Of a DNA stretch of 64,000 bases, positions 4,746 through 61,156 are shown in pieces. Where the stretch lies: positions 20,112,465-20,176,464 of the forward strand of contig OY754468.1 in NCBI GenBank assembly GCA_963575645.1. Reading direction: 5' to 3'. The notes under the pieces are model-generated. The model saw nothing but the letters and a program-made list of their open reading frames with translations. It was not told where the DNA came from and did not search any database. Position 1 is the first letter of the stretch. Every line of letters begins with the position of its first letter. Made by a program: the position numbers and the translations under genes. This DNA comes from Xanthostigma xanthostigma. Its lineage: Eukaryota > Arthropoda > Insecta > Raphidioptera > Raphidiidae.

Positions 4746-4967
4746 CGTACCAGTCATAAATACAAGAATAAAGAACACGATATTCACAACAAAAATAAAA
4801 TCATCAACATTTGCCTATAATAACACACATGTAGCATAAATGTGCAATTTGTTAAACAGATTTGGAAAGATATCCAAATATTGTTATTACGTTCAATCAT
4901 TACATATGCAGTCTTTAACGTTCATTAAGGAAGTAATGTATCTTTTCTTTCTTTACTGTTTTAATTT

Positions 4968-32189: not shown

Positions 32190-32345
32190 CAACATAAATC
32201 TTTTTGGTTTCCAGGTTGTAAACCGCAAAGGAAGACACTTCCTCCACTGCCACACCTATACAGCTAGATCGATTTTTTACTCCCTGGAACCTATTTTCAG
32301 TAAATTTTATCCAAATCGTTAGAGCTGTTTTCGAGAACAAAATTC
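32190..32345 (-). mobile_element. Fragment of the Helitron-like family seen at 40.2 kb
   Basis: On the minus strand ATTTTGTTCTCGAAAACAGC, TCTAACGATTTGGATAAAAT and TTACTGAAAATAGGTTCCAG parallel the plus-strand sequence at 40230-40300 (TATTTTCTCGAAAACGGCCC, TAACGATTTGGATGAAATTT). The similarity also shows in translation (SKTALTIWIKFTE versus SKTALTIWMKFTE), which gives one shared frame but no known domain. Confidence 0.45.
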
Positions 32346-32985
32346 CAGCCAATTGGACGACGGGACCATTCCAATTCCAAAAATATTGACGTTTGATATA
32401 GTATAATAAAGAGAATAAAACTTCTGATGCTGCGTGAGGTGATGCGGTTAAGGGCTAGTATTCAATATGATACTTGCCATTCGTTGCCATGGTTATCTAC
32501 ATAATGTGTTCCACGTCATGTAAAAATTAATCAAAGCATGCTTAATTAGTTTACTTCTGACAGATTTACAAATAATAGAACAGTTGATTTTTTTTTATTA
32601 AAAAATATTTCCAAAACTATAAAGTTTAGAAAAAAAATGTTTAACAAAACTTTCTTGAAAAAATAAATAGAATAATAGGGCGTTATGAAATGTATACCAT
32701 TATTACATAAAAAACACCATTATAGCATATATCTCTTCTGCGCATGCGCCGATTTTCCCCAAAAACAATAGGGCTCTTCATATTTGCATACCAAACATCC
32801 TCCTAAAATTTGGTTTCAATCTGTTTGACTTGTATCGTGTTCACAGACAAACGCACAGAGTTTTTCCAAAAGTAGGTTTTTTGAATTAGGGGACATCTAA
32901 ACGAAAAAATATTGTAAAATTTTGAAAAGTGATTTTTGACCTAAACTAGTACCATTCTCCACTTGTGGGTTGAAATGGCAAAAGC
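32344..32985 (-). repeat. Family A, near-complete minus-strand copy
   Basis: It runs from CCAGCCAATTGGACGACGGG and ACCATTCCAATTCC at one end to CCATTCTCCACTTGTGGGTT and GAAATGGCA at the other. In reverse it contains, in order, the family start, the GGCGCATGCGCAGAAGAGAT core and the CATGACGTGGAACACATTAT tail. It is the best full-length guide to family A (about 640 bp). Confidence 0.75.
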
Positions 32986-32989
32986 TCGT

Positions 32990-34220
32990 TAAATAATATA
33001 GTAGGATTATAATATATTAACGCCACCTTTCGATAAAAAATGAAAAACCGAACTACCTTTGAATTACATACTTTAAATAAGGCTTTTAGTAGATCGTTTG
33101 TCTCTTGGCGATCTATCGAATGTCTTGATTAGTCTCACAAACTCGGCTTGATTTTTCAAGCTTCTCCAATTTTTCCGTTAAAAACTTCACCGGTTTCATT
33201 ATAATTATTTCAATGCAAAATCTACATCAATTATTTAATATACATAAATATGAAAATACAAGAAGCAAGACGGTAAATTTACAGTTTCAAACAGTATAAA
33301 ACCTAAATCACTAAAAAAAGTAAAGTTCCCGTATGAAATAAAAGAAATGTAAATTATTGATCTTGTTTAATGTAGGTGAAAATATTAAGTTTCTCGAACT
33401 AAATTCAAACCATTTAAAGTTTTCGTGGCATTATGACATCGTATCGAGAGAAAACCACTAGCTATGTAAGTCACGTGTAAAAATGTTCACATACGAAGTT
33501 TTCTTCATACATAATATCTTTATGTGACGTAACACTCGAAAGAAGAAAATCGTAATAAATATATCAAGTATCACCGGCAATTCAGAATTATTACCATTAG
33601 GTGTGCGCTGTAATACGGGAAACTGAAAAGTTTAAAGTTTTAGGGCAGCAAACCGACGTTATATTACGTAGTGAAACTGAGAGGAATTTTCCGTAAGTTG
33701 TAGGGTAAACGCAGACGAACGGAAAGAACGCTGTTTGGACATAAATGTGTGACTTACAGCTCTCACAGGAAATTCCTGTACTGCCAAAACTTATATAAGT
33801 ACGTATAGAAAATTTCTCCTGCTCCAACTTCTCTACAAACTGAATTTAATTCTCTTTGACCATAATTCATACAACTTCATGTTCATTTGAAATTTTGTTA
33901 TATGAAATAAGAGATATCATTTCATTTCATTTCAACCCATTTATTACCAGAATTGCAATTTAACTGTCAAACTTATGTAACAATAACTTTGTGAAATTAT
34001 AGGAAAATTTTACACTATAGCTATATAGTTTAAAAGCTATATTAAACTAGCGAACACTCATTCATAAGAGATTTAACTCGTATCACAAACAGCGGTTAAG
34101 TATAAAAAAGCTGGAATATAAATAAAAAAAAAACTATATTTTAGACTCTAATCTGTAGTGGCGGATTAAGCATTCTGTAAGCACCGCCTCATTTTAAGTC
34201 CTTCGTTAATATTTTCGATT
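32990..34220. other. Intergenic, no gene recognised
   Basis: A+T-rich sequence without recognisable coding or repeats, apart from short runs. A 76-codon minus-strand frame at 33597-33827 has several Cys residues but no family pattern I recognise. Confidence 0.5.
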
Positions 34221-34221
34221 T

Positions 34222-34795
34222 TACCATTCCAACCAAGTGGGGAATGGTACTAGTTTAGGTCAAAAATCACTTTTCAAAATTTTACAATATCTTTTCTTTT
34301 TGAGGTCCCCCGAATCAAAAATCATATTTTTGGAAAAACCCTGTGCGTCTGTTTGTCTGTGAGCACGATACAGGTCAAACAGATGAACGGATTGAAACCA
34401 AATTTTGGGAGGATGTTTTGTATGTAAATATGAAGAGCCCTATTGTTTTTGGGAAAAATCGGCGCATGCGAAGAAGATATATATGCTACAATGGTGTTTT
34501 TTATATAATAAGGGTATACTTTTCATAAAGGATAATTATTACATTCATTTTTTCAAGAAAGTTTCGTTAAACAATTTTTTTTCTAAACTTTGTAGTTTCG
34601 GAAATATTTTTAAAATAAAAAAAAACCAGCTGTTCTTTTGTTTGTAGATCTGTCAGAAATAAACTAGTTAAGCATGCTTTGATTAATTTTTACATGACGT
34701 AGAACATATTATGTAGGTAACCATGGCAACGAATAGCAAACATCGTATTGAATACTAGCCATTACCCGCGGCACCTCACGCGAAGTAGCGTACAT
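34222..34795 (+). repeat. Family A, near-complete plus-strand copy
   Basis: It starts TTACCATTCCAACCAAGTGG and GGAATGGTAC and runs through GATTGAAACCAAATTTTGGG to the tail AATACTAGCCATTACCCGCG and ACCTCACGCG. It is 574 bp long. It lies about 200 bp upstream of the first foldback-like element. Confidence 0.75.
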
Positions 34796-34993
34796 TAGAC
34801 AAGCACCTGCAACCAGCAGTCAGCAACGACCGTCAGTCGGTCGCCTGCAATTTCTGTCTAGTCTTGTTGGACCTATCTAGTGTGCTAGTGATGTGTCGTT
34901 TTCATTAATTAGTTTGCATTGATAAAATTACTTGAAAACTACAAAATTTCTAGCTATATTTGCTGTTTTGTGTGCTGGTCTAGTGTACGACAT

Positions 34994-36559
34994 GGTTCCA
35001 TGATAATTGATCCTCCGACAATAAATCCCCGACAAAATATACCCGACAAAATATTCCCGGACAAAATACCCCCGGACAAAATATCCCCGGACATATTGCC
35101 CCCGTGACAAAACATCCCCGACAATTGATACCAAATAAACATTAATTTACAAATAAAATCAAATATTATGAAGCTTCCCATTTTGTATTTTAAGTAACTC
35201 AAATGGATGTTTGTAAGTTGCTGTTCTGTTGATTTCTCGTCACGCGCAGTCAGTCGCTCACTTAGTAATACAGTAACCCAAATTGATTATTTTTGTCACC
35301 CAAAATTGTAATTTACAGTCACTCGTTTAAATACTATCCACCCCGTCATCGTTGACCCCGGAATTGTTTTTTTAAAAACTCCAAATTTGCCCCTTCCCGT
35401 TTCACTTCGAGACAATTTGTATACCCGTTTATCGTTCTCCCCGGAATTGTTTTTTTAAAAACTGCACATTTGACCCTTCCCGTTTCACTTCCAGACAATT
35501 CGCATACCCGTTTATCGTTCTCCCCGGAATTGTTTTTTTAAAAACTCCACATTTGCCCCTTCCCGTTTCACTGCGAGACAATTCGCATACCCGTTTATCG
35601 TTCTCCCCGGAATTGTTTTTTTAAAAACTCCACATTTGCCCCTTCCCGTTTCACTGCGAGACAATTCGCATACCTGTTTATCGTTCTCCCCGGAATTGTT
35701 TTTTTAAAAACTCCACATTTGCCCCTTCCCGTTTCACTGCGAGACAATTCGCATACCCGTTTATCGTTCCCCCGGAATTGTTTTTTTTAAAACTGCACAT
35801 TTGCCCCTTCCCGTTTCACTTCGAGACAATTCGCATACCCGTTTATCGTTCTCCTTGGAATTGTTTTTTTAAAAACTCCATATTTGCCCCTTCCCGTTTC
35901 ACTTCGAGACAATTCGCATACCCGTTTATCGTTCTCCCCGGATATGTTTTTTTAAAAACTCCACATTTGCCCCTTCCCGTTTCACTGTGAGACAATTCGC
36001 ATACCCGTTTATCGTTCTCCCCGGAATTGTTTTTTTAAAAACTCCACATTTGCCCCTTCCCGTTTCACTTCGAGACAATTCGCATACCCGTTTATCGTTC
36101 TCCCCGGAATTGTTTTTTTAAAAACTCCACATTTGCCCCTTCCCGTTTCACTGCGAGACAATTCGCATACCCGTTTATCGTTCTCCTCGGAATTGTTTTT
36201 TTAAAAACTCCACATTTGCCACTTCCCGTTGCACTGCGAGACAATTCGCATACACGTTTATCGTTCTCCTCGAAATTGTTTTTTTAAAAACTCCACATTT
36301 GCCCCTTCCCGTATCACTGCGAGACAATTCGCATACCCGTTTATCGTTCTCCCCGGAATTGTTTTTTTAAAAACTCCACATTTGCCTCTTCCCGTTTCAC
36401 TGCGAGACAATTCGCATACGAGGATAAATTGTCGGGGATCTTTTGTCACGTGGGTATTTTGTCCGGGGATATTTTTTTTGGGAATATTTTGTCCAGGTAT
36501 ATTTTGTCGGGGATATTTTGTCGGGGATTTTTTGTCGGAGGATCAAGAAGCCTGATACG
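34994..36559. mobile_element. Foldback-like element 1 with satellite core and 9-bp TSD
   Basis: GTACGACAT is repeated on both sides (34985-34993 and 36560-36568). The left end begins GGTTCCATGATAATTGATCC. The strong TIR begins TTGATCCTCCGACAA (35007) and mirrors TTGTCGGAGGATCAA (36532-36546). Both TIRs consist of tandem 14-18-bp repeats of the type GACAAAATATCCCC (left about 35017-35128, right about 36426-36540, inverted). Between them lie about 220 bp of A+T-rich sequence and 13 units of an 83-bp satellite. TIRs made of short tandem repeats plus a 9-bp TSD are the hallmark of Drosophila foldback elements, and a 9-bp TSD also fits Mutator-like elements. No transposase is present. Frames through it are repeat translations. 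Confidence 0.75.
35346..36418 (+). repeat. 83-bp satellite array, 13 units
   Basis: Each unit reads approximately CCCCGGAATTGTTTTTTTAA, AAACTCCACATTTGCCCCTT, CCCGTTTCACTGCGAGACAA, TTCGCATACCCGTTTATCGT, TCT. The GGAATTG landmark recurs about every 83 bases from 35361 to 36355. Units differ at a few sites (for example ACTGCACATT in two, TTCACTTCGAG against TTCACTGCGAG), which lets their order be traced. Two Gs and the T-run lengths vary little. Confidence 0.95.
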
Positions 36560-36569
36560 GTACGACATC

Positions 36570-37828
36570 GAGCAGGTCGTGCAGATTTATGCTTGTTTTT
36601 TGATTTTTCACCAATATTACACATTTATTGATCATTAATTTATTAATCATAAACAAAACGTTAAAAACAAACGATTTTATTTTTTTAAGGCCTCTGCAAT
36701 ACTGAGGCCGCATACGTCCCGGTAAACATTTTTTTCCTTGACTGGAGGTCGGTACCGTGGGGGGACACAAAGAGCGCGAGGGAGTGGGTTTTAGTGGGTA
36801 TGGAGCAATGCTTCGAGTCCCACACTACCCAGAGAACACCTGGGTGTCCGTAACTGGATTTCCCCCTCCGTACAAAAAAAAACATTTTTTTCCGCCACCA
36901 ATAGCTTCAGGGTTTGACCCATGTGTCAATTTCTTATTACCTTAAAAAAATCAACAATATGTAGTCGGTAATCATACACCTACATTACCTACATTAGGTA
37001 TACCTACATTTTTTCCCATTTTTAAAATCATAATTTGATGAACAAATAGTACAATATTTTTTTAATTAAGAATCAGCTTCAATTGTTAAACAAAAATTTT
37101 TAATTAAAAATATGATATTAATAAATTATAAAGTTCATTCGTAATGTAATTTGTTTCGTTTGCAAGAAATACTCTAGCTGTACATTTTTTTTTATTCACT
37201 AAAACTGGTTGCAAATGCTCTGCAGATTATACATTACTAGGTATATAAGATACACCACGAGTAGACATCTTTTTCATTTAAATTTTTGATCCCAGTGACG
37301 TATCCATAATTTCATTTTGGAGGGAATATTGAAAACTTGTGAAAAAAAATTATAAAAAAATCTGCATAATTATGGTTGATATTATTTTTTATTTTATTAC
37401 CATTCATTTTATACATTCCCTAAAGAATAAAATCTTAACATCGAAATTTAAGACAAGCCCCTTGAAACTACACCGAACCCCCCTCCCCCACTTTAATAAT
37501 AGTGTAAATAATATGACCTCTAAAACTCTCGACTGGGCGCCGGGTCCTCTGGTTCTCTAGTTACATCCCAGCTCACCACTCCTCTATGACCCCATGATTA
37601 AAATAAATTCTGAATCTGAAAACTGTATACATGTCTACTTATAATTGTTATACTACAACATTGAGAAAGATCATAATTTATAGCGTTCGGTTTACATAAA
37701 AAAATTTCATTCTCTGCTTTTTATGTACAAGAAAATGAAACGCGGGTGTGTGTTAAGGTCAATTCTCAATATTAAAAATAGAACTGTGTAACATTTTTCT
37801 TTTATAATTTACTAAATGGCGCCTTACC
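36570..37828. other. Intergenic, with an unassigned G+C-rich block at 36690-36870
   Basis: 36690-36870 is far richer in G+C than its surroundings (TACTGAGGCCGCATACGTCC, GGACACAAAGAGCGCGAGGG, CCCACACTACCCAGAGAACA, CCTGGGTGTCCGTAACTGG) and ends in an A-run plus T-run. I could not assign it: an old SINE/LINE 3' end or an exon relic are possible. Translations in all frames gave no family I recognise. The remainder is A+T-rich. Confidence 0.45.
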
Positions 37829-38064
37829 CAGTGGCGTAACTATACCACCTGAGGCCTGTGGCAAATTCATCGGATGGGGCCCTCCCTTAATATAAAAAAG
37901 TTTCACGTTGTAGGTAGTTTCGTCTTTATAAATCACGAAGTAAAGTAGATATTTGTATAATTCGTGTATTTTCTTGATTTAATACAAAATACAAAATTAA
38001 AATTGTTTATCAAATGTTGCAATAAATGTTAGGATCCTTCTGTCCTATGACCTCTATGTTCGGG

Positions 38065-39079
38065 GGTTCCGCGACTTTTCACCCCCCGACAAAATATCCC
38101 CGACAAAATATCCCCCGACAAAATATCTCCGTGACAAAATATCCCCCGACAAAATATCTCCCCGACAAAATATCTCCCCGACAAAATATCCCCCTACAAA
38201 ATATCTCTAGACAAAAAAACCACAACTATTGAAAGCCTCCCGTCTCTTATCTAATTCGCATACCCCGTTATCGTTCACCCCGGAATTGTTTTTTTTTTAA
38301 ACTCAACATTTGCCCCTTCCCGTTTCACTGCGAGACAATTCGCATACCCCTTTATCGTTCACCCCGGAATTACAATTCGCATACCCGTTTATCGTTCACC
38401 CCGGAATTGTGTTTTTAAAAACTCCACATTTGCCCCTTCCCGTTTCACTGCGAGACAATTCGCATACCCCTTTATCGTTCACCCCGGAATTGTTTTTTTT
38501 TTTTAACTCAACATTTGCCCCTTCCCGTTTCACTGCGAGAAATTCGCATACCCCTTTATCGTTCACCCCGGAATTACAATTCGCATACCCGTTTATCGTT
38601 CACCCCGGAATTGTTTTTTTTAAAAACTCCACATTTGCCCCTTCCCGTTTCACTGCGAGACAATTCGCATACCACTTTATCAAAAAAAGCGATGGTTTTC
38701 AATCTTCATGAAAATGTGAGTTTTAAGTTGGTCTCAAAGTGAAAAAAAAATAAAAAGTAAAAACAAAACTCATTCCGGTACCGGGAATAGTTTAGGAAAA
38801 GATTTCAATAATTAAAAAATAATTTGAATAATTAAGTAAACGATTTAATTTGATGAACGTGTTTTTCATGAAAATTTTATGTTTTTATTTCTCTTATTCA
38901 ATTCAGACGTTCTTTTGTCGGGGGATATTTTGTCGCGGAGATATTTTGTCAGGGGATATTTTGTCTATAGGATATTTTGTCGGGAGATATTTTGTCGGGG
39001 GATATTTTGTCGGGGAGATATTTTGTCGCGGGCTATTTTGTCGGGGATATTTTGTCGGGGGTTGAAAACGCGCAGTACC
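38065..39079. mobile_element. Foldback-like element 2 with satellite core and 9-bp TSD
   Basis: ATGTTCGGG flanks it at 38056-38064 and 39080-39088. The left end is GGTTCCGCGACTTTTCACCC; the right end in reverse complement is GGTACTGCGCGTTTTCAACC, a clear TIR. As in element 1, the TIRs continue into inverted arrays of GACAAAATATCCCC repeats (left about 38088-38215, right about 38909-39062) around an 83-bp satellite block (38255-38685). Both elements start GGTTCC, so they belong to one family. The core here has a different higher-order order, with short units (GGAATTACAATTCGCATACC) between long ones. Confidence 0.78.
38255..38685 (+). repeat. 83-bp satellite, about five units with a short-long pattern
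   Basis: Full units alternate with truncated ones in which GGAATT joins directly to ACAATTCGCATACCCGTT (about 38367 and 38573). The block from 38255 to about 38460 is repeated almost exactly from about 38460 to 38665, so the last amplification copied roughly 205 bp. It ends TACCACTTTATCAAAAAAAG, the same junction as the inverted piece at 6976. Confidence 0.85.
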
Positions 39080-39149
39080 ATGTTCGGGGACCCCCTCAGG
39101 CCAGGGGCCCGTGGCATTTTGCCCATTCTGTCACGTATACTGTCTCCAG

Positions 39150-40499: not shown

Positions 40500-41694
40500 C
40501 CTGCTTATTTTTTTAAGTTACCATGTAAATGCAAAATTTGTTTGGATGACTATAACAGCTGATTATATTAAAATATTACGGATTCATGAGAAAGACGCGA
40601 ATCCGGATGTTTCTTGAGTAACCTTAAGAGCTTTGAGACTTGCGTTACATATCTTGGTTAGACGGATATATGTATGTAGAAGTTTTAATTTGTATTCTCT
40701 GTATAAAAGTACAATGATAAAGAGGAATGAAAACAAAACAGCCATCTCAATTTTACCAGAGAGCTTTTAATATGAACAGCCATACTACAAATAACAAGGC
40801 AAAAGCTTTATGTATGCTTCTCGATCTTTTTGTAATCGTTCTCTTTTCAAAGAAAAAACTATACAGTCCGGAGATCGAAGCTTTTTTTATTGTCTCATAT
40901 TTTTCAGAGAAAGACGTAAATAGACGTTTGTTAAAGAAATCATTTAATTAGCTCTTCTATGTCTCGATTTTGTTAAACAATGCAAAGATCGAACAACTAT
41001 ACACTAGAGCAGGGCATGCACAGACCGCAGCTTCCAGGCACCGCGAAAATGGCCTGTTGATAGTTGAATACCCAACAAATTTAATGAAGGTAGTTTACTT
41101 AACTTCTACCCCTGCATTCATAAAAACCCATTTAAAGTATTGCGAACATTTCTTATAGGTTCTGGCATTTTTGTTGACGATTTTATTGTTTCAGGATTAG
41201 GAAATGGTTATGTAGAATTTGTTACCGTGACTATAGAGAAAAAGCAACGCTCTGAGCATGCGTGTAGAGTGCGTATGACGCTTTAACAGAGAGAGCATAA
41301 AAGTTTCTCCCACTCTTTCGTCTCAACTGTCGGTTGAAGTCGAAGATGGGGAAGCGTTTCATTTTTCGTCCGATTCAGGTCAATTTGCCTTTTTTCGTGA
41401 GGGGGGAATTCTTTTTACGAACACTTATGGCGTAGTGTGGAACTCTACCCAATAAAACCCCCCTCTATCACCCCCGTATCGGCACTCCGGAATTGCATAC
41501 AATCAAGTTGACGACTAATCATTGATTCGCCCAAAGAGAAAAAACTCTATTTTGTGGCTACTGATCACCTCTTCAGGGTTTAGGCCGATTTGCCCTACCG
41601 CGCCTAAAGAATCACTTCAAAAAAAATTGGGACATTATAGTCATCGTTTTCCAAAAGTCAATATATACACATGCAGTGAGTCAACCGATACATT
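40500..41694. other. Intergenic, with a dispersed repeat at 41185-41335
   Basis: 41185-41335 (TGTAGAATTTGTTACCGTGA, AGCATGCGTGTAGAGTGCGT, TTCTCCCACTCTTTCGTCTC) is matched in reverse complement at about 59160-59300. Short frames elsewhere, such as 40727-40951 and 40970-41158, have no recognised domain. Confidence 0.5.
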
Positions 41695-42800
41695 TTTAGG
41701 CGCGATTAGCGTAAGCTAAAGCGCCTTATATGTACTCGCTTTGTCTGTGAATCTGTGAGTCACGCTTTTTGTATCCAGCGTACAGCCCAAACGCCTTAAC
41801 CGATTTTAAAAAACTTTTTTTTGTTCGATTCGTCTCCGGGTAACTTAAATCCTAACGTCGCCCGATTTTTGAATTTTGACCCCAGAGGGGAGCAATAAAG
41901 AAATATCGAAGTTTTTTGCTTATAACTCACTCAATTTAAATCAGATCGGTTCGAAACCTGTCTTAAACGAAAGAGGAGAAAATTTTACATAAATTTCGTA
42001 CAACAGAATTTGCCAAAACAGGTTTTTTATACAAATTTATTTAGAAATAAATTCAATTTGATATAATCGATGGCAAACATCTTTCGGTTATCTCTCTCTG
42101 TTGCACGGTTTAATATGGTAATATAAAGATTACGTTTGTTCTGTCTTAAAATAAAACGATTGCATTTGTTCAAAAACGGATGGCATTTCAAATATTTGTG
42201 AAATGCAACGCCTTCTGAGTTAACAATTTGAATAACTAATTATTAGAACATAATACTTTGACAGATGCAAACGTCATTTTTGACATTTCTTACCATTCCG
42301 ACACCACGGATGAGCGGATTGAAACCAAATTTTGGGAGGATGTTTGATATGCAAATATGAAATGGCCTATTGTTTTTTGGGAACATCGGCGCATGCGTAA
42401 AAGAGTATATCTTTTATAATGTTGTTTTATATAATAATAATATAGTTTTTAAAAAGACTTATTATTTTATCTATTTTTACATGAAAGTTTTGTAAATTTT
42501 TTGGGGAAAATCGGCGCATGCGCAAAAGAGATATGGGCTATGACGTTGTTTCTTATATAATAATGCTTTACATTTCATAACGGTTGATTATTCTATCTGT
42601 CTTACAAGAAAGTTTTGTAATTTATTTTTGGGGAAAATCGGCGCATGCGCAAGAGATATTATGTGCTATAACGTTTTTTTATATAACAATGGTATACTTT
42701 TCATAGCGGCTTATTATTCTATCTGTTTTACAAGACATTTTTGTACTTTATTTCGGGAAAAATCGGCGCATGCGCATCAGAGATATATGTTATTACAAGA
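41695..42800 (+). repeat. Family B, copy 2, with three extra family-A cores
   Basis: 41695-42440 parallels 5391-6200 closely. After it, the segment around AATCGGCGCATGCGC-A-AGAGATAT and TTTTATATAATAATG is repeated about every 115-125 bases (near 42383, 42503, 42629 and 42765), an internal tandem expansion not present in copy 1. Confidence 0.75.
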
Positions 42801-42804
42801 AAAA

Positions 42805-44325
42805 TAAAATAATAATAAAAAGAAAGTTTTTATTGAAATGTACCAAAATGGAAATATAATTATTTCAATAATTTTTGGTAATAATTATAAAAAAGTTGGT
42901 TGTGACTAATTATTAATAAATTATTAAAATGATTTTTTCCTTTCTGTGTTTCAATATTTTCAACTGTAATTTTTTTCGTAGATTAAGTTAATTAAATTAT
43001 ATTATTAAGCTCAAAGTGTCGTTAAAAATATACTATAATTTTCAAACATAACGCCGGGGTATATTTTATAGAATTTCGCGCCTTGTAATTCTTGAATTAC
43101 TTGTGTCTTCAGACAATATTTTTTTATATTCAATGAGAAGCTTTCTCCTTTCTTTCAATATAATTATTATTTTCAAATATAGCCAACCGCAAATGGAAGC
43201 CACAAGGCTAGTTATTAATTAAACGAAATGATGTCGTTAAGTTATAATAATGACGGGATTTGTTTTGAACACACGAGTAAGCGTTTCAATCACAACGGAC
43301 TGTGAACATGGCGCTCAGCGCTGTGACCGACGACGAATGTGTGCACGGTTTATTTTTATTATCAAAAGAAAACTTTATTGCTTGTTTCCATTAGTGATTT
43401 TTCTTCTTTTTCTACGAGTTACAGAAAAAAGATGTAAAAAACGTTAGTCGGACACAAAAAAACACATATATGTTGTATGTGTCTAAATTGTACAGGATGC
43501 TCGAAAAACGGTTAACCTTTAACTGGCTAATGGGATGTCGCGTAAGTTTGACGGTAATTATGCTTGTTGATGATAATCTGTGCAGACGATTGATCAATAT
43601 AAAAAAAAACGTTTAATGTTTCATTAATAAAAAATATTGATAGTATAAACTTGAAAAAAAGAATATTTATTTTTTAATTCAATAAGAATGTTTTAAGGAA
43701 TGATTTCATGTGTTTGATAACATTTAATATGAAAATAATTGATTTTCAAAAATTGTGCAAAATTATGATTAAAAAATTTCAATTGTTATTATTAATACAT
43801 TGCCTATATTGACCACAAGTTTTGTATTCATAAATTTTATATTCTTATGAACTATTGGCAATGTTCATTCTTTACATGCGACGTATTACGTGTTCGGATT
43901 CCTTTTGTCTAGTCTTCTTGTTATTAACTATCGAATTGTTGTGCGCTCTTCGTCCTGTTTGAATATTCAGTCAATATTTTTGTGTACATCCAGTATAATC
44001 GAGTGTATACTATACAAGCACAGTTGGTGAATCCTAACAAATAGAGGTCTAAATCCTACAGAAGACACGTCCCATATGGGTCGCGAGCATATACGCAGGC
44101 CGGGGCCACTCTGCGAACTGTCACACATGCACAGACAAATATGTGAAAAAGACATTCACTAATATACTGACAGAACAAAGACAGAGAATATTGTGTCTCG
44201 GCTTCTCGAGAAATGTTCTCGCCTTAAGTGAACACTTCTATTTATAGATTATATTGATCAACGTCGAAATATTGATGAAGTGTCGATTCATTGATTGACA
44301 GAGCCCCAATGATATGTTTCAAATT
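42805..44325. other. Intergenic, no gene recognised
   Basis: AAAGTTTTTATTGAA-TGTAC and ATAATTATAAAAAAGTTGGT near 42825-42905 resemble 10180-10240, a shared repeat flank. A G+C-richer patch at 43280-43350 holds a 28-codon frame starting MALSAVTDDECV, too short to call. Nothing else recognised. Confidence 0.5.
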
Positions 44326-48255: not shown

Positions 48256-48862
48256 TATGACGAAAAGTCCAGGCTAGCTAAGCTCAGCGGCGCAAAGGTC
48301 GTGGGTTCAGTTTTTTTTTTTTTTTTTTTTTGGCAAACGTGCTTAAAAGGGCTTAAAAAATGTTAACTAATCAAAAAAAAAAAAACACTCAAAATTGACA
48401 CAGGCAAATGCCTGACAATAAAATCCTACCACCTACCACTCGACAAATAAAGACAAACACAATCGAAACCGTTTTTTAGTATTTTCAAAATATTTTATAT
48501 AAAAAACAAGGAATCTATTTTCAATCTCAAGAATATTTAATATCGTATGTGTCGTACCGACTGATGTCAGAAAAGGGCGCCAGGACAAAAAGACCATACG
48601 AGGCAACACAAACGGTCCAAGATTGTGTGCGAGAAAAAGATTCTAGAAATCCTTTCCAACCAATTAAACATAAAACCAAATTTCAGACAAAACACAAAAT
48701 TGAATCATCTAAGAAAATACCCCATAACTTAATCCAACTACAAGACTGACAATTCAATTTCTAGAACACACAGGTAACACATTAAAATCAGCGGTGTCAA
48801 CCACGCCAAAAGACAGGCCCGCCACTGGCAGCACCGTGAGGTCTTTTTAATAATTATTACGA

Positions 48863-48893
<31 letters not shown>

Positions 48894-49431
48894 GCCAATT
48901 AGTCAAAAAACAACAAACAGCAAATCCAAACTCCAGCAAAATCCGACAACCTAAAAAAATCCTATCTCAAATCCAAAACAGACAAATCGTCAATCCAAAA
49001 ACGACCTATCCAAAATTCGACACTCCAAAACAAGCGCCAAAATATTAAAAATCCAACCAAAAACGTTCCATTCCAACACAATCATCCACAAAACATCATT
49101 TTCTCATCTCAAAAAAATCGCGTATGTGGCCGCTGTCACGGCTCGCCGTCCTCTCCCAGCTATATCACCAACCGATTCTGTCCGCCCTCCAGACCAGATC
49201 GCGACAGAATCTAACAACGACGAGCTCACTTGCACGCATCACAGTCGACTGGCCTTCTCAGTCACACTCATTTCATTCCGCGTATTACCTTTTCAAACCT
49301 GATCCGCTCTGTCGTCTGGCGCTCGTCCATCATACACTGTAACGGTATTAAAAGCAAGATTTTGATTTTTTTTTATAATATAGGCTCGATCTATTATTTT
49401 TTTCGGGGGCCTCCAATTGTTAACCGTTACA
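48256..49431 (-). repeat. 3' LTR (left copy)
   Basis: A 1,176-bp copy ending on the plus strand at AACCGTTACA. It differs from the right copy by one substitution (T at 48419, C at 54649), T-run lengths near 48311 and 48863, and absence of an 11-bp segment (around 49114, GCGTAT then GTGGCC). Element termini on the coding strand are TGTAACGG at the start and CGTCATA at the end, so the usual terminal CA is absent. The short frames inside are the same in both LTRs and are not genes. Confidence 0.95.
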
Positions 49432-49446
49432 CTCCCCCTCTCCCTG
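49432..49446 (-). promoter_or_regulatory. Polypurine tract
   Basis: On the coding strand CAGGGAGAGGGGGAG directly abuts the 3' LTR start TGTAACGG. A purine run in this position primes plus-strand DNA synthesis in LTR retrotransposons. Upstream of it is an A/T-run that may reinforce RNase H processing. Confidence 0.9.
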
Positions 49447-49507
49447 GAAAAAAAATGTGAGCAAGCGAACATTTTTTCAACACGTGTCCAAACTAAAGAA
49501 CAACAGC

Positions 49508-52500
49508 TCAGTCTGACTCGTCATCATGTGATTCAATAGTACGAAAAGGTTTCAAATCCTTGGTGTGCCACCGTCCCAAACTAACACCAGAATCATCGGC
49601 GAGCTCCACAATCAAATCTGACACTACCTCCCGAACAACAGCTTCGGTATATCTTGGAGCAAGTTTGGCCGCCACGTGCTTAGCATTACTCGACATGATA
49701 TGATGTCGTTTCCACACACGATCACCAACATTATAAACCTCAGCGGGACGCTTTCCCTTATTATAGGAGCGGACGTTCTTATGGTACGCCTCCGTGAGAT
49801 GGCGTTGAACCGTTCGGTAGATTTCCGGAAGTTCTTCCAGCTCCTGAACATGCAAGTTCCGTACTGCATCCATGTCTACTTCATCGCACTCATCTAAGCG
49901 ACCGAAATAGCTCCCGCTGGCTGGAACAAACCGACCAAAATTGAGAAATGCTGGCGAGAATCCGGTTGATTCGCTGACTGCTGTTCGGAGAGCAAAACCT
50001 ATCTTTTGGATCTCCTGATCCCACGTCCGATGGTCAGCCTCCTGAAGATATGACCGGATGGCAGCGCCAATGGTTCGATTGTATCGCTCAACAAAGTTCA
50101 CCTGGGCGTGATATCGAGCATTCGGCCACAGCTTAACACTATACTGGCGGACAAGATCTTTTATTCGCTGATTAATGAACTCAGTCCCATTGTCACACAT
50201 TAAGATTTGTGGAACGCCGAAGAGTAAAAAGACTTCCTCCTCGAGAAATTTGGCAATCGCCGAACCGTTGGCATGCCGGAGGGGCTTTAGCAGGGTGAAC
50301 TTCGTAAACCAATCCGTTACCACCAATAAGTAGGACGCACCACTCTTAGATTTTGGAAGGGGGCCTATAATGTCGGTGGCAATGAGTTGCCACGGTCGAG
50401 AGACCTGTTTTGGTCTGCCCATAAAACCCGGCCGAGCCGTGGTAGTCATCTTCTGAGCGGCGCAAACTTTGCACTTCTGCACGTACCGTTTAATATCCCG
50501 ACGCATGCGAGGCCAATAGTACAATTCTCGAACCCGATTGACAGTCTTAAAAAATCCCAAGTGGGCCGCCGTGGGCTCATCATGACATGCTCGCAACACG
50601 TCCCTCCGTTGACGAGAAGGCACGATCAACTTCCAGTTCACATTATTTTTAACACCAAAATCCGACGATACAAACTTATACAACCGACCGTCAATCACAT
50701 TATATCCCGGGAAATCATCTGGGCTAGCTGTCACAATGCGTCTCAAATTCGAGTACCATCGGTCTCGATCACAAATTTCGGGATCCAAATTCACTAAACA
50801 TACTTCAAGCGGCGACCTCGACAAAGCGTCCGGTACCACATTCAACGCACCCTTTCGATGCACAATGTCGAATTCAAATTGTTGCAGCCTAACAGACCAA
50901 CGAGCAAGACGTCCGACAGGATCTTTAAGGCTATGGAGCCATAACAGCGAGTGGTGATCCGTTATAACACGAAATCGAACGCCTTCTATGTAAGGACGAA
51001 ACTGCTCCACTGCAAATAGTACTGCTAGGCACTCCTTTTCAGTAACCGTATAGTTTCTTTCGGCTGCCGACAAGGTTCGGCTGGCATACGAAATTGGTGT
51101 CTCTACACCATCCTCATTCTCTTGGGTCAAGACACAACCCAATCCAACATTAGAGGCATCACACTGGATGGTAAAACGCCGCTGAAAATTTGGGCTCGCA
51201 AGAATAGGTGCTGATACAAGAGCCTGTTTAATTTTTAGGAACATGTCTTCCGCTTCTGGGGTCCAAACAATACCTTGACCTTTCCGACGTCCCTTTATCA
51301 GAGCAGTGATGGGTGCTGTTAAGGTTGAAAAATCCAAAATAAAACGCCTGTACCAAGAGCACATACCAATAAAGCGTTTAACCTCTGTACAGTTCCGAGG
51401 ACGGGGATATTCAACCATCGCAGCAATCTTGTCTGGATTGGTGCGCAACCCACATCGATCAACCACGAAACCCAAGTATTTGAGAGACGGAAAGCAAAAA
51501 CGACACTTCTCCGGATTGATAGTCAACTTAGCTTCTGATAATCGACGGTATACTTCCAACAGAACCTCGATGTGTTTCTCAAATGTCGGGGCAACAACGA
51601 TAATATCGTCTAAATAGACGAATGCATAAGGATCCAACTCAGGTCCCAGAACCTGATCCATAAGTCTCTGCTGAGTCTGAGGAGCGTTGTTAAGGCCAAA
51701 CGGCATAACTAAAAATTCAAAGAGACCCTTACCCGGAACACTAAAATCGGTTTTCTCGCGTGACGTGGTTTCGAGAGGAATTTGCCAAAAGGCGCTTTTC
51801 AAATCGATGCTTGACAAATATTTAGCACCGGCTAGTTTGTTTAAAATGTGGTCCACGCGAGGAAGAGGGTAAGCATCTTTTTTCGTGACGGCATTCAGCT
51901 TGCGCCCATCAAAACAAAACCGATAGTCGCCCTGCGACTTTTTCACTAAGAGGACGGGGGATGACCACGGACTCGACGATCTCTGAATAACACCAAGTTT
52001 CAACATCTCATCCACCTCGCTATAAAGATGTTTCAGTAGGTAAGGGGACAAAGGGTATTGTCGTTGCTTGATTGGCAAGGCATCTCCCGTATCGATGTGA
52101 TGTACGATCTTGTCAGTACGTCCCAATTTAGTGCCATTTACCCACGAAAGTTTTCCAAACTGTTTGAGGACACCGTCCAAGTGCCTACGCTGAGCATCGT
52201 CTAGTTCTGTTCCACTTTTAATACCCTCAAAAGCCCCATCAGACCCCCTCAGCATTCCAGCTGTTTTGTCTATCACACAAATATTTTTATTACCGACCAA
52301 ATATCGATTTACCCGAAAATCAATCACCAAACCAAATTCCCGACAAAAATCACTACCCAAGATAAGACAATGACCCAAAGAAGGTACCACTAGCACCTTA
52401 ATTAACCGAAGCAATTTACCAATAACAATAGGCAACAAAACATAACCCGAAATGCGCTGCGGAGTTCCATCAGCCGTTTGGATAGATTGATCAGACGAAC

Positions 52501-52852
52501 TGTGCACCTTAAGATAGAGTGACTTGATAATGTTTAGGCCACCATGACCTAGCACCGAATCACTCGCGCCCGAATCCAAAAGAGCAACGTAGTCGCGGTC
52601 GAAGATACTGACCGAAATATAAGGGCGATTGTCAAAAGGCTTAGAAACCAACAAAGGGTTAAGATTAGCAGGAAATACGGGCTTAGCGCAAAAATTAGAA
52701 ACCGTCTTCAACCACGATTTCCACGATGGTGAGTCACGATCCAGCGTGTAGGCCTGTTTTAAAGAAGGAAAGCGATGGCCTATGCGCTTCCTCCTTCGTC
52801 GTTTCCCTGACATATTGGACAAGATTGCCGAACACAACCTGGCTTTCCACAA
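49508..52852 (-). CDS. pol: Pol polyprotein: protease, reverse transcriptase, RNase H, integrase
   Basis: The open frame has 1,114 codons from a non-ATG TTG; translation is expected only by -1 frameshift near 52801, so roughly the first 17 codons are not used. Domains by residue: aspartic protease with LLDSGAS at 91-97; reverse transcriptase about 265-460 with IDLKSAFWQIPL at 349-360 and the catalytic YLDD at 413-416; RNase H with D565, E606, D632 and D675 (PDALSR); integrase with the HHCC zinc finger H757, H764, C794, C797 and catalytic D827, D887, E923 (D-X35-E, in CDNGTEF and NFVERYNRT); and a chromodomain-free C-terminal region with a GDRVW motif. All catalytic residues are present and no stop or frameshift interrupts the frame. 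The PR-RT-RH-IN order defines Ty3/gypsy. The stop is about 60 bp before the polypurine tract, leaving no room for env. Confidence 0.95.
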   Translation of the reverse strand: MWKARLCSAILSNMSGKRRRRKRIGHRFPSLKQAYTLDRDSPSWKSWLKTVSNFCAKPVFPANLNPLLVSKPFDNRPYISVSIFDRDYVALLDSGASDSVLGHGGLNIIKSLYLKVHSSSDQSIQTADGTPQRISGYVLLPIVIGKLLRLIKVLVVPSLGHCLILGSDFCREFGLVIDFRVNRYLVGNKNICVIDKTAGMLRGSDGAFEGIKSGTELDDAQRRHLDGVLKQFGKLSWVNGTKLGRTDKIVHHIDTGDALPIKQRQYPLSPYLLKHLYSEVDEMLKLGVIQRSSSPWSSPVLLVKKSQGDYRFCFDGRKLNAVTKKDAYPLPRVDHILNKLAGAKYLSSIDLKSAFWQIPLETTSREKTDFSVPGKGLFEFLVMPFGLNNAPQTQQRLMDQVLGPELDPYAFVYLDDIIVVAPTFEKHIEVLLEVYRRLSEAKLTINPEKCRFCFPSLKYLGFVVDRCGLRTNPDKIAAMVEYPRPRNCTEVKRFIGMCSWYRRFILDFSTLTAPITALIKGRRKGQGIVWTPEAEDMFLKIKQALVSAPILASPNFQRRFTIQCDASNVGLGCVLTQENEDGVETPISYASRTLSAAERNYTVTEKECLAVLFAVEQFRPYIEGVRFRVITDHHSLLWLHSLKDPVGRLARWSVRLQQFEFDIVHRKGALNVVPDALSRSPLEVCLVNLDPEICDRDRWYSNLRRIVTASPDDFPGYNVIDGRLYKFVSSDFGVKNNVNWKLIVPSRQRRDVLRACHDEPTAAHLGFFKTVNRVRELYYWPRMRRDIKRYVQKCKVCAAQKMTTTARPGFMGRPKQVSRPWQLIATDIIGPLPKSKSGASYLLVVTDWFTKFTLLKPLRHANGSAIAKFLEEEVFLLFGVPQILMCDNGTEFINQRIKDLVRQYSVKLWPNARYHAQVNFVERYNRTIGAAIRSYLQEADHRTWDQEIQKIGFALRTAVSESTGFSPAFLNFGRFVPASGSYFGRLDECDEVDMDAVRNLHVQELEELPEIYRTVQRHLTEAYHKNVRSYNKGKRPAEVYNVGDRVWKRHHIMSSNAKHVAAKLAPRYTEAVVREVVSDLIVELADDSGVSLGRWHTKDLKPFRTIESHDDESD
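52765..52796 (-). promoter_or_regulatory. Predicted stem-loop downstream of the frameshift site
   Basis: Pairing of AAGGAGGAAGCG with CGCTTTCCTT gives about ten base pairs, with one bulged A and two G-U pairs. The loop is CATAGGCCAT. The spacer from the slippery site is short (4-5 bases), close to the usual 5-9. The fold was derived by eye; a pseudoknot with downstream sequence was not excluded. Confidence 0.4.
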
Positions 52853-54066
52853 CTAAAACAAAATCGAGATCGAGGTTTTTTACATTCAGAGCGTAAGTGT
52901 CCAACCTCTTGACAATTCCAACATCTCAGCGCAGACACGTCCGGTAGCTGCTTTGTAATAGCCGGATTTAATGACGCCACCTTTTTTGTGCAATGACCTG
53001 ACTTATCTTCAATAATTATATTTGGTTCCAAGTCTCTTAAGAAATCTCTTACTTCAGATACAGTTTTAAGCTGATTACGAACTAAATGCACACGGTAAGC
53101 AGGCAAGATGTTTCTAATAACTATCTTTACCTTCTCTTCTTCACAAGGAGGAACCCGAAGCCGCGATATTAAATTCGAAATACTAGAGATAAAATTTACA
53201 ACCTTCTCTTGAGGCTTCTGTTTCCGAGCATAGATTTCAAGTAGAAGATCATGCTCATAATCCGGTGGCAAAAAATCCAACTTCAAAGCGTCAACCAATG
53301 AGTCCCAATCGCAAAAATTATCCTTCACGGACCGATACCACAGAAGAGCATCACCAGTGAACAGTTCAACTGCAGCATGAAACAAGTCGTCCTTCGAAGC
53401 ATGACGACCAGCTCTCAATTCCTCTACTCGTTCTAAAAAATCGAATAAGGGCTGTTGACCGTCAAACGACACCCGCCATTTAAAAATCGGAATTATTTTT
53501 TGTTGTCGGTACGGCGTACTATAGTGCATTGCTGGAGTTCCAGCCTCGGTCATGTCAGCCACAGGATCCATCATGGAACGGTTGTTACCGGTTAAAGTAG
53601 CAACAGGTCGCTCAGGCTCGACCGCAAACCGACTGCCCTCAGCTGATGAAGCATCCGCCATTTTTGTCACCAGATCGTCTTCCAAGGAGATAGCTGAGAT
53701 CAGTCTATCGTTTTTAAAGGCCACAACATCCGGATCAGCATTATTTATTCGTAGTAGACGACCTTTAATATGGTTTAGCCGACTTCTTATTTCTAAGAAT
53801 GTGGCATCTGCAGCTTCCGACAAGGAATCTATTAGTGTACTAATCGATGTGATACAAACATCTATTTCCGCACTGTCAACATCTCGGTCAAATGTGTTAC
53901 AAGTATAAGATACTCCTGGACGATTTAGATCGGCAGCCAACAATCTCCGCAGGCACTTCCGTCTCTTTAGGTCATCACTGCCACCAGAAAATCCTCGAAT
54001 CAATAATTCATAATTGATTTCATTAATAGTAAGACAATCCACGTCTATATCGTACGACAAATCCAT
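52780..54066 (-). CDS. gag: Gag polyprotein (capsid and zinc-knuckle nucleocapsid)
   Basis: A 428-residue structural protein that would assemble the virus-like particle in the cytoplasm and bind the element RNA. Residues about 1-50 (LTINEINYELLIRG ...) match the N-terminal pattern common in arthropod Gag proteins. About 195-305 (FKWRVSFDGQQPLFDFLERV ... LFTGDALLWYRSV ... FLPPDYEHDLL) is a retrotransposon Gag capsid core of the kind from which Arc proteins derive. Two zinc knuckles follow at 382-395 (CX2CX4HX4C) and 403-416, the second with Cys in place of the usual His. A CPIC pair comes just before the frameshift. The start is the first ATG after a leader of about 390 bp. The frame is intact. 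The end overlaps pol by 73 bp in the -1 frame. Confidence 0.93.
   Translation of the reverse strand: MDLSYDIDVDCLTINEINYELLIRGFSGGSDDLKRRKCLRRLLAADLNRPGVSYTCNTFDRDVDSAEIDVCITSISTLIDSLSEAADATFLEIRSRLNHIKGRLLRINNADPDVVAFKNDRLISAISLEDDLVTKMADASSAEGSRFAVEPERPVATLTGNNRSMMDPVADMTEAGTPAMHYSTPYRQQKIIPIFKWRVSFDGQQPLFDFLERVEELRAGRHASKDDLFHAAVELFTGDALLWYRSVKDNFCDWDSLVDALKLDFLPPDYEHDLLLEIYARKQKPQEKVVNFISSISNLISRLRVPPCEEEKVKIVIRNILPAYRVHLVRNQLKTVSEVRDFLRDLEPNIIIEDKSGHCTKKVASLNPAITKQLPDVSALRCWNCQEVGHLRSECKKPRSRFCFSCGKPGCVRQSCPICQGNDEGGSA
52801..52807 (-). promoter_or_regulatory. -1 ribosomal frameshift heptamer GGGAAAC
   Basis: The coding strand reads G GGA AAC exactly in the gag frame (X XXY YYZ form), seven codons before the gag stop. 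It is the same heptamer known from some retroviral gag-pro junctions. The pol frame is -1 relative to gag and is closed by a TAG immediately upstream of 52852, so any shift must happen in this 73-bp overlap, and this is the only classical heptamer seen there. About four to five bases downstream begins a possible stem-loop (coding-strand GGAAGCG with CGCTTTCC, loop about 10 bases, 52765-52796). Confidence 0.85.
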
Positions 54067-54460
54067 AGTAATATTATACCACTCGCTTATTAGCTAATCA
54101 AATACAAAAGTAATCAAAGCACAAAACACACCAAAAACCAAGGATAAAATACAACCAAACCAAGGAGGGCCAATAATCAAGCTCCGTTTGGAAAGTGAAG
54201 AAAAAAAATTTTTTTTCAACTAAAACAACAACCAACTTAGAGTTTCCCAAAATCAACAAAACCCTAAAACTCAACACCATGAAAATATTCCAAAAAAACA
54301 ACAATAAATAAATAAATAAATAAATATTCAACAATAACAACAATACCCAACAAATAACAAGAATAATCAACAATAACAAAAATTCAACAAAAGGTTTCGC
54401 AATATTTTCAAAAAATTGCAAGAATGGTTTATTGCACTCTCCAAAAACTTCAAAATGAGG
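54067..54460 (-). other. Retrotransposon 5' leader
   Basis: About 394 bp between the primer-binding site and the gag start. The plus strand is rich in CAACAATAA words (coding strand TTATTGTTG). A 107-codon minus-strand frame here is strongly hydrophobic and Leu/Ile/Phe-rich because of this bias, not a recognised protein. The leader would hold the packaging signal, but none can be pointed to. Confidence 0.6.
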
Positions 54461-54478
54461 GCCCCACGTTGGGCGCCA
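54461..54478 (-). promoter_or_regulatory. Primer-binding site complementary to tRNA-Lys
   Basis: On the coding strand the 18 bases TGGCGCCCAACGTGGGGC begin five bases after the 5' LTR. This is the sequence complementary to the 3' end of animal tRNA-Lys (the Lys1,2 type also used by some retroviruses). It marks the start site of minus-strand DNA synthesis and fixes the element's orientation. Confidence 0.92.
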
Positions 54479-54483
54479 AATTG

Positions 54484-55090
54484 TATGACGAAAAGTCCAG
54501 GCTAGCTAAGCTCAGCGGCGCAAAGGTCGTGGGTTCAGTTTTTTTTTTTTTTTTTTTTTTTGGCAAACGTGCTTAAAAGGGCTTAAAAAATGTTAACTAA
54601 TCAAAAAAAAAAAAACACTCAAAATTGACACAGGCAAATGCCTGACAACAAAATCCTACCACCTACCACTCGACAAATAAAGACAAACACAATCGAAACC
54701 GTTTTTTAGTATTTTCAAAATATTTTATATAAAAAACAAGGAATCTATTTTCAATCTCAAGAATATTTAATATCGTATGTGTCGTACCGACTGATGTCAG
54801 AAAAGGGCGCCAGGACAAAAAGACCATACGAGGCAACACAAACGGTCCAAGATTGTGTGCGAGAAAAAGATTCTAGAAATCCTTTCCAACCAATTAAACA
54901 TAAAACCAAATTTCAGACAAAACACAAAATTGAATCATCTAAGAAAATACCCCATAACTTAATCCAACTACAAGACTGACAATTCAATTTCTAGAACACA
55001 CAGGTAACACATTAAAATCAGCGGTGTCAACCACGCCAAAAGACAGGCCCGCCACTGGCAGCACCGTGAGGTCTTTTTAATAATTATTAC

Positions 55091-55125
<35 letters not shown>

Positions 55126-55673
55126 CCAATTAGTCAAAAAACAACAAACAGCAAATCCAAACTCCAGCAAAATCCGACAACCTAAAAAAATCCTATCTCA
55201 AATCCAAAACAGACAAATCGTCAATCCAAAAACGACCTATCCAAAATTCGACACTCCAAAACAAGCGCCAAAATATTAAAAATCCAACCAAAAACGTTCC
55301 ATTCCAACACAATCATCCACAAAACATCATTTTCTCATCTCAAAAAAATCGCGTATATCCATTACATGTGGCCGCTGTCACGGCTCGCCGTCCTCTCCCA
55401 GCTATATCACCAACCGATTCTGTCCGCCCTCCAGACCAGATCGCGACAGAATCTAACAACGACGAGCTCACTTGCACGCATCACAGTCGACTGGCCTTCT
55501 CAGTCACACTCATTTCATTCCGCGTATTACCTTTTCAAACCTGATCCGCTCTGTCGTCTGGCGCTCGTCCATCATACACTGTAACGGTATTAAAAGCAAG
55601 ATTTTGATTTTTTTTTATAATATAGGCTCGATCTATTATTTTTTTCGGGGGCCTCCAATTGTTAACCGTTACA
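54484..55673 (-). repeat. 5' LTR (right copy), promoter of the element
   Basis: A 1,190-bp copy beginning, on the coding strand, at TGTAACGGTTAACAATTGGA. A TATAAAA-like string lies on the minus strand at about 55613-55619, roughly 55 bases into the LTR, and could serve as the core promoter. It contains two long homopolymer T tracts (plus strand) of 23 and 27 bases. It retains the 11-bp segment ATATCCATTAC (about 55356) that the 3' LTR lacks. Confidence 0.95.
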
Positions 55674-59793: not shown

Positions 59794-59930
59794 GACGTTT
59801 TATTAAAACGCGCGCGACTGTCACGCGTACTTTTGAAGTGAATACTTCTTTAAAAATGGGGGTAAACTCGTTTCCTTATGTAACGAAATTGCACTATTAG
59901 TAAGCCTACATAAACATTGATTTTTTGTAA

Positions 59931-61154: not shown

Positions 61155-61156
61155 TA

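Follow-up and report, generated by a model that had tools for sequence, protein, structure and literature searches.

The foldback element FB of Drosophila carries terminal inverted repeats (TIRs) made of tandem repeats and generates a 9-bp target site duplication (TSD). Some FB elements have been grouped with Mutator-like elements (MULEs) in the description of Tm1, a Mutator/Foldback family of root-knot nematodes with TIRs of 13–15 bp tandem repeats, 8–10 bp TSDs and a FLYWCH/MULE transposase (PMC3169594). Phantom MULEs also combine MULE and FLYWCH domains with TSDs of 8–10 bp, and a 'Mini-satellite after the transposase ORF (aphids)' is tabulated for them (PMC6446971, Table 1). In the same source, Rehavkus has a 9-bp TSD and a minisatellite before the 3′ TIR, but a PHD finger in place of FLYWCH. 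Satellite-like arrays are borne by other transposons as well (PMC7492417, PMC4079207). The non-autonomous Tetris foldback of Drosophila virilis, with TSDs of 8–10 bp, has tandem repeats that can amplify into satellite-like arrays, while the dispersed Cg_HINE elements of the Pacific oyster contain central satellite-like repeats, with flanks and repeats combining as modules.

Here, we analysed a window of 64,000 nucleotides from Xanthostigma xanthostigma, which contains two transposons, E1 and E2, each enclosing an array of the same 83-bp satellite. The initial annotation considered the combination of foldback-like ends and satellite cargo possibly undescribed; as far as the published descriptions of Tm1 (PMC3169594) and of the Phantom minisatellite (PMC6446971) extend, it largely has been described. 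The new element here is one satellite common to several carriers with different ends, and the portions of PMC3169594, PMC6446971, PMC7492417 and PMC4079207 that concern these elements describe no such sharing across MULE-like carriers.

Layout of E1 and E2

The interval 34985–39088 extends exactly from the left TSD of E1 to the right TSD of E2. E1 is a non-autonomous MULE-type element of subfamily A (1566 bp; 34994–36559, plus strand), flanked by the TSD GTACGACAT at 34985–34993 and 36560–36568, with 9/9 matching positions. Its left end starts with GGTTCCATGATAATTGATCC and its right end, on the opposite strand, with CGTATCAGGCTTCTTGATCC. The left TIR repeats, of about 15 bp and the GACAAAATATCCCCG type (35017–35124, plus strand), are followed by a left interior reaching to the array (35125–35347, plus strand), the satellite array (35348–36419, plus strand) and the right TIR repeats (36429–36543, minus strand). 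TRF describes this array as 12.9 copies of period 83 with 95% matches.

E2, a non-autonomous MULE-type element of subfamily B (1015 bp; 38065–39079, plus strand), lies between the copies of its own TSD, ATGTTCGGG, at 38056–38064 and 39080–39088, again with 9/9 matches. It starts with GGTTCCGCGACTTTTCA on the left and, on the opposite strand, with GGTACTGCGCGTTTTCA on the right. Its left TIR repeats are of the CCCCGACAAAATATC type (38083–38216, plus strand), and the satellite array (38253–38681, plus strand), the right interior (38682–38912, plus strand) and the right TIR repeats (38913–39061, minus strand) follow. The satellite unit of 83 bp consists of 46 + 37 bp. In E2, the TRF periods of 37, 85, 120–121 and 205 reflect a mixture of 83- to 85-bp and 120-bp spacing (46 + 37 and 46 + 37 + 37).

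The TIR repeats of both elements were delimited by TRF, which gave a period of 15 in all four TIRs, and by short-repeat matches. Twenty-nine matches to GACAAAATATCCCC with at most two mismatches were counted against 0.63 expected, and none of 100 shuffles reached 29. These results confirm the two elements with tandem-repeat inverted ends and 83-bp satellite arrays that had been noticed before. The statement that both start with GGTTCC holds for the left ends only, while the right ends read CGTATC in E1 and GGTACT in E2 on the opposite strand. Asymmetric outer motifs are printed for Tm1 too (CGGTTAA and CCTACCC; PMC3169594), a likeness that concerns the printed motifs only. The build of E1 and E2, with TIRs of short tandem repeats, is foldback-like; the likeness to FB, which concerns build alone, covers the tandem-repeat TIRs and the 9-bp TSD, but the repeat portions are short here (about 108–149 bp). 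In Tetris, by contrast, the TIRs themselves contain the 220-bp repeats, and its description reports no transposase found for it (PMC4079207).

A third satellite place, S3, which the initial annotation overlooked, contains two 46-bp units and 37-bp units on the minus strand (6976–7184, approximate limits). It has no short-repeat TIRs and adjoins a 120-bp tandem array. The window also encodes a gypsy pol protein.

Dispersed copies and target duplications

With two copies only 1.5 kb apart in one window and with satellite and repeats in common, E1 and E2 might be regarded as a local rearrangement flanked by chance 9-mers. However, the E1-type (A) left end has 95 matches in the genome, on 11 of 28 contigs (62 exact, 33 with mismatches), compared with 0 for the reversed-sequence control. 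In a sample of 20 of the 62 exact places, picked by position and excluding the 33 mismatched places and those on contig C1 examined earlier, the matching far end and the satellite were both present in 20/20. Their TSDs were exact in 14, had one mismatch in three and were absent in three, so that 17/20 carry a TSD with at most one mismatch, against 0/380 among swapped partners.

For the target duplications, 34 elements with both ends recognised were compared. TSDs matched at 9/9 positions in 12 and at 8/8 in 14, three had one mismatch and five had none, whereas swapping of partners yielded no exact and one one-mismatch pair among 1122. Hence 29/34 bear a TSD of 8 or 9 bp (three of them with one mismatch), within the 8–11 bp expected of MULEs. 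This count omits duplicates (L008, equal to L009; L028 and L031, of L029; L001 and L048, of L030; L045, of L036) and loci at which the two ends were not both recognised (L002, L004, L005, L006, L017, L022, L026 and L055). L036x lacks a TSD and has an altered right end.

Empty sites with a single copy of the target were found for L014, L032 (transposase-bearing), L043 and L020b. The comparison with empty sites called for by the initial annotation succeeded for several copies; for E1 and E2, the loci compared yielded no empty site that spans the junction. In addition, a C element with the TSD GTTTACATG is nested inside one transposase-bearing copy, and L029 has that site once. Against the dispersed ends, the TSDs and the empty sites at other copies, the chance that a local rearrangement accounts for E1 and E2 is practically negligible. 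E1 and E2 are real transposons of the Mutator (MULE) kind with a satellite array as their core. The foldback-like character proposed earlier, with tandem-repeat TIRs and TSDs of 8–9 bp, is borne out; the 9-bp TSD as such is correct for E1 and E2, but the wider family has 8 or 9 bp. Further copies with TSDs exist, so that the refuting condition set by the initial annotation, a lack of such copies, did not hold, and by their dispersal satellite arrays are moved, as the suggestion of a mobile satellite carrier implied.

Central satellite-like arrays between modules, as in the oyster Cg_HINE, which belongs to the Helentron superfamily (PMC7492417), could also point to Helitron or Helentron (HINE) elements with central tandem repeats. 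Against this stand the inverted ends with target duplications of 8–9 bp and the MULE transposase in relatives of E1 and E2. Helitrons are not known to make such a target duplication, and we judge this assignment very improbable.

Transposase-bearing relatives

A MULE transposase, which the initial annotation had proposed to look for between such TIRs, was indeed found in D-type copies. Subfamily D elements, for example G000:C1:39078095-39081518, combine TIRs of tandem ~15-bp repeats with a gene and the satellite. They encode a MULE domain (Pfam PF10551; E 1.6e-12, 48.1 bits against a cut-off of 27.6) that is absent from E1 and E2 themselves, and a 57-aa upstream reading matches FLYWCH (Pfam; E 1.2e-13, 51.4 bits against a cut-off of 23.6). 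The D gene probably consists of two exons, with the FLYWCH zinc finger joined to the MULE frame by a predicted splice, which would give the N-terminal FLYWCH plus MULE arrangement of Phantom. The full-length frame of 422 aa is present in five copies, with a rounded identity of 100% and no stops. D-type ends and the satellite were present in each of the six near-identical transposase-bearing copies examined, five of which also have a TSD, with a mismatch in one of these five. In these six copies, the satellite array lies on the 3′ side of the transposase gene, beside the left TIR, and this corresponds to the Phantom minisatellite after the transposase ORF. The relatives found for the transposase are of the MULE or FLYWCH/MULE kind and come from aphids, a gall midge and other organisms; a protein of Microplitis mediator is 82% identical.

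Taken together, the sequence features point to a Phantom-like MULE lineage close to described kinds. The available account of Phantom lists the MULE and FLYWCH domains, the 8–10 bp TSD and the tandem array after the transposase gene, but gives neither the repeat sequence nor a satellite common to carriers with different ends (PMC6446971). Tm1 agrees in its tandem-repeat TIRs, 8–10 bp TSDs, FLYWCH and MULE domains and short non-autonomous derivatives; it differs in that the word 'satellite' occurs 0 times in the main text and that, as reported there, a single transposase copy was present in the isolates examined and the family was judged inactive (PMC3169594), in contrast to the five full-length frames of about 100% identity found here.

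Among the copies examined, none of the A or B type contained a transposase, and where the ends of A, B and D correspond they are only 44–70% identical over 27 bases, in a comparison made without a control. Therefore, A and B may be moved by an enzyme other than that of D. A different transposase accepting similar ends, either another MULE of this genome or one from another superfamily with 8-bp duplications, would agree with these unlike ends and with the presence of MULE relatives at 28–48% identity, some of which (L039, L044/L046 and L057) have short-repeat arrays of the same type next to them. However, the left side of E1 (element positions 24–253, repeats included) is 88.8% identical to that of L029 over 233 bp, and the GG-T/A ends, ~15-bp repeats and 8–9 bp TSDs recur across subfamilies A–D. 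We therefore regard a different transposase as rather unlikely. The 83-bp satellite was found in none of the 3–4 kb loci of the more distant MULE relatives.

We favour the reading, with a probability of about 0.88, that E1 and E2 belong to the Phantom-like MULE lineage as non-autonomous copies. The autonomous-looking member would be D, with its TIRs, FLYWCH and MULE gene and 3′ satellite array; short TIR–satellite–TIR elements may then have arisen once the gene was lost and ends were exchanged. Insertion of such elements at new sites with 8–9 bp target duplications is documented above, and a D-kind transposase would carry it out, presumably for subfamilies A and B as well, with the satellite array riding along.

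A satellite common to several carriers

The satellite moves along with the elements, but its description as the cargo of two odd elements was overstated: it belongs to the six transposase-bearing copies and to further carriers. Its unit is 92–99% identical among subfamilies A, B, C and D, and with 8,483 matches genome-wide it is commoner than the E1/E2 family. The first 100 exact satellite places listed are distributed among 61 loci in 16 Mb of C1, with at most nine places each; 58 of these 61 have no exact short repeat within 3 kb, and none is a long free satellite array. Among 12 sampled loci lacking the short repeat, ten represent two additional carriers of MULE-like type, II and III, which have different ends and were found through exact 34-base satellite matches, and eight of these ten have exact duplications of 8–10 bp. 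The occurrence in a transposase-encoding relative and in transposons with different ends indicates that the satellite travels with mobile DNA. Viral contigs gave 0 matches.

Carriers with different ends, together with S3 and its lack of recognised ends, would also be expected if an ordinary satellite DNA had been captured by transposons many times independently. However, array flanks are common between carriers. The C element L007 and carrier III share 136 bp on the left at 100% and 57 bp on the right at 96.5% identity, and the 48 bp that adjoin the E2 (B) array on its right are 95.8% identical to carrier II, whose left side has no match. Moreover, no locus among the first 61 exceeds nine exact places, and the related short-repeat elements L002, L004, L005 and L006 contain an array of similar kind (~70% identity, period 75–83; z 7.7–9.6 against 40 shuffles each). 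Repeated independent capture thus seems improbable. Under the lineage reading, nesting of carrier in carrier and recombination inside the shared array would place one satellite between different ends; nesting was observed once, and recombination is suggested by flanks that are common on one side only.

More tentatively, the satellite, rather than the ends, may be the lasting unit, relayed between transposon families with arrays as the platform of exchange. A core left without a transposase partner would then gain new ends by recombination within the array and keep moving. The identity of the satellite across carriers with different ends makes an exchange of ends testable.

A derivation of the satellite from the ~15-bp TIR repeat found no support, as 93 of 500 shuffles gave a local alignment score at least as high. 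A tree of 122 satellite units, with 25 label changes by subfamily and 65 by element but no shuffled control, was set aside, and matches of the repeat sequences in the texts of two published papers were judged to be chance.

The near-identical transposon copies provide a case for watching satellite spread and array growth, and bear on the open problem of how such arrays become dispersed along chromosomes and vary in length. The six transposase-bearing copies differ by 0–4 substitutions in 1948–2000 bp, yet their arrays contain 6, 6, 14, 8, 16 and 13 units. In this one assembly, gain and loss of array units thus far outpace point mutation, with slippage or out-of-register repair as the most likely cause.

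E1 and E2 and their dispersed family

The initial annotation described two transposons with their target duplications in the interval 34985–39088, and both are present there as claimed. E1, a non-autonomous MULE-type element of subfamily A (subfamilies A to D are distinguished by their ends), spans 34994–36559 and is flanked by the target site duplication (TSD) GTACGACAT; E2, of subfamily B, spans 38065–39079 between copies of ATGTTCGGG. Each end consists of a short outer sequence followed by 7–10 tandem repeats of about 15 bp of the GACAAAATATCCCC type, which face opposite ways at the two ends of either element, with 29 short-repeat matches found versus 0.63 expected. Both elements enclose an array of one 83-bp satellite, composed of a 46-bp and a 37-bp part. 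The array of E1 comprises 12.9 units of 83 bp, and that of E2 mixes spacings of about 83 and 120 bp (83 + 37). A third satellite place in the window (S3, about 6976–7184, minus strand) is directly adjoined by a 120-bp tandem array of 5.8 copies (6273–6966), which matches the 83 + 37 spacing in length but is unlike it in sequence as judged by eye.

The window occupies 20112465–20176464 of contig C5 in a genome of 623 Mb, in which the 14-mer of the short repeat occurs at 432 + 366 places versus 30 + 36 for the reversed control. A first sample comprised 34 elements with both ends recognised, gathered from the window, from the first listed 14-mer places on contig C1 and from loci found later through the transposase. 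The TSD measured 9 bp in 12 of these and 8 bp in 14, contained one mismatch in three and was absent from five, while swapping partners yielded 0/1122 exact and 1/1122 one-mismatch duplications. The E1-type left end was found at 95 places (62 exact) on 11 contigs, with none for the control. From the 62 exact ends, 20 were picked by position, with each of the 11 contigs represented. All 20 possessed a matching far end (≤5 differences allowed), at an element length of 399–2211 bp, and the satellite in the same orientation throughout; their TSDs were exact in 14, had one mismatch in three and were missing in three (swapped control, 0/380).

For 28 elements the two flanks were joined and compared with the genomic DNA collected by that stage, and junction-spanning relatives were found for eight (L014, L032, L043, L020b, L040, L049, L003 and L018), of which the first six were aligned. 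The insert is absent and the target single in the relatives of L014, L032, L043 and L020b; the alignment for L040 has no gap, but several differences at the target. The empty site of L014 is represented by two paralogues in the window, near 7350 and 12670. No empty site for E1 or E2 was present among the junction-spanning relatives in the DNA collected. Furthermore, a subfamily C element with the TSD GTTTACATG is nested at 697–2618 of the transposase-bearing copy L035x, and its insertion site occurs once in L029. L014 itself interrupts a member of a repeat family whose internal tandem arrays vary; copies of this family lie in the window at 4946–5392, 11510–12791, 32336–33013, 34191–34783 and 41693–43103.

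E1 and E2 are real and mobile, and the observation is explained at the family level. In build, the E1/E2 family matches Tm1 (PMC3169594) and the Phantom MULEs (PMC6446971).

Transposase-bearing copies and their arrays

L029 and L030 are larger relatives. L029 (196–3619) is bounded by subfamily D ends and contains a satellite array together with a 422-aa frame on the minus strand that has a Pfam MULE domain (E 1.6e-12); a reading upstream of this frame contains a FLYWCH finger (E 1.2e-13). A genome search with the frame returned 34 matches: five full-length copies free of stops and at 100% identity (rounded), another that is nearly complete but split into two pieces, fragments and distant relatives. 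The closest protein outside this genome, from the wasp Microplitis mediator, shares 82% identity, which could reflect kinship or horizontal transfer; none of the remaining 56 exceeds 46% identity, and those with a name come from aphids, midges, sciarids and other invertebrates.

In the six near-identical copies that bear the transposase, the ends are of D type and the satellite lies 3′ of the gene. A TSD flanks five of them, once with a mismatch; in the sixth, L036x, the right end is altered and a TSD is absent. Two complete left ends stand in series in L029 (196–500), the D end outermost and a C-type end (GGTTCTATGACTC) inside, as if new ends had been added outside the old; the second, C-type end is missing in L032. 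The 83-bp satellite was not found in the 3–4 kb loci examined around distant MULE relatives (28–48% identity). Among MULE relatives, L039, L044/L046 and L057 (32–37% identity) lie next to 14-bp repeat arrays of the same kind and lack this satellite, and L044 possesses a different, 71-bp tandem repeat.

Over the 1948–2000 bp adjoining the array, the six copies differ by 0–4 substitutions, and their arrays comprise 6, 6, 14, 8, 16 and 13 units. The corresponding strings of unit types are abcdec, fdcdbc, acfghffifjcdbc, acfdcdbc, klcdlcfffdcdcdbc and acfgcdcfmcdbc. Five of the six arrays end on the right in the units cdbc and three start on the left with ac; the stretch in the middle varies by expansion or contraction. 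A likely cause of such changes would be slippage or out-of-register repair, and the differences in array length may alternatively be assembly error.

One satellite in several carriers

The satellite is commoner than the E1/E2 family. A 34-base piece of it (≤3 mismatches) matched 8,483 genomic places and its control none. On C1, the first 100 exact places fall into 61 loci spread over 16 Mb, three of which have the exact 14-mer within 3 kb. From the first 18 satellite loci, 12 without a nearby exact 14-mer were sampled; none of the 12 contained forward short repeats (≤3 mismatches), and four had a single reverse one. Seven belong to carrier II, a MULE-like element with the ends GGTCCAGTACGATAACACTATG / GGTAAGAGTACGATAAC, and three to carrier III, with the ends GGTAATTATACACTTTCACGG / GGTTATTATACAC. 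Exact duplications of 8–10 bp flank eight of these ten loci when an end shift of 1–2 bases is allowed (swapped with equal slack, 0/90). The other two, L087 and L097, have an E2-like interior. A stretch that resembles tRNA by eye (GGGAATCGAACCCGGGCCTCTTGGG and near variants) lies beside the satellite in some B-type elements, at L087 and in the right interior of L010 and L013.

The left side of carrier III is identical to the interior of the C element L007 (100% over 136 bp), and 57 bp on its right side match at 96.5%. The outer left 114–116 bp of C are 97–98% identical to a part of L029, namely the second block within its left end. On their left sides, E1 and L029 have 233 bp in common at 89%; the match on the right is limited to 79 bp at 76%, inside the short repeats. 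Right of the array, B, II and IV have 45–111 bp in common at 90–96%, while B and II show no match on their left sides. The terminal 27 bases are 44–74% common between subfamilies (ungapped; a figure without a control). With at most six recognised units counted in each element, the 46-bp unit is 97.8–98.7% identical between A, C and D and 97.4% within A, with B at 92–94% and S3 at 88–93%. A related array, about 70% identical and with a period of 75–83, is present in L002, L004, L005 and L006. Because of this flank sharing, the unit identities and the related array, the satellite appears to be old in this lineage, with the ends having changed around it.

Published work describes transposons that carry and spread satellite-like arrays (Tetris, PMC4079207; oyster Cg_HINE, PMC7492417), tabulates a minisatellite after the transposase ORF in aphid Phantom MULEs (PMC6446971) and reports, for molluscs, that satellites and transposons form a network (PMC5139131). 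In the titles and abstract openings of mostly non-subscription literature, no single satellite common to MULE carriers with different ends was found. What merits further study is the possible relay of a single satellite from carrier to carrier.

Other repeats in the window

A gypsy-type LTR-retrotransposon-like element occupies 48256–55673, with 1.2-kb direct repeats that are 98.7% identical and with gag and pol frames on the minus strand without inner stops. Near-perfect inverted repeats at 59930–61155 (95% over 1.2 kb) and 62810–63111 (99% over 302 bp) are possibly other foldback or palindromic elements.
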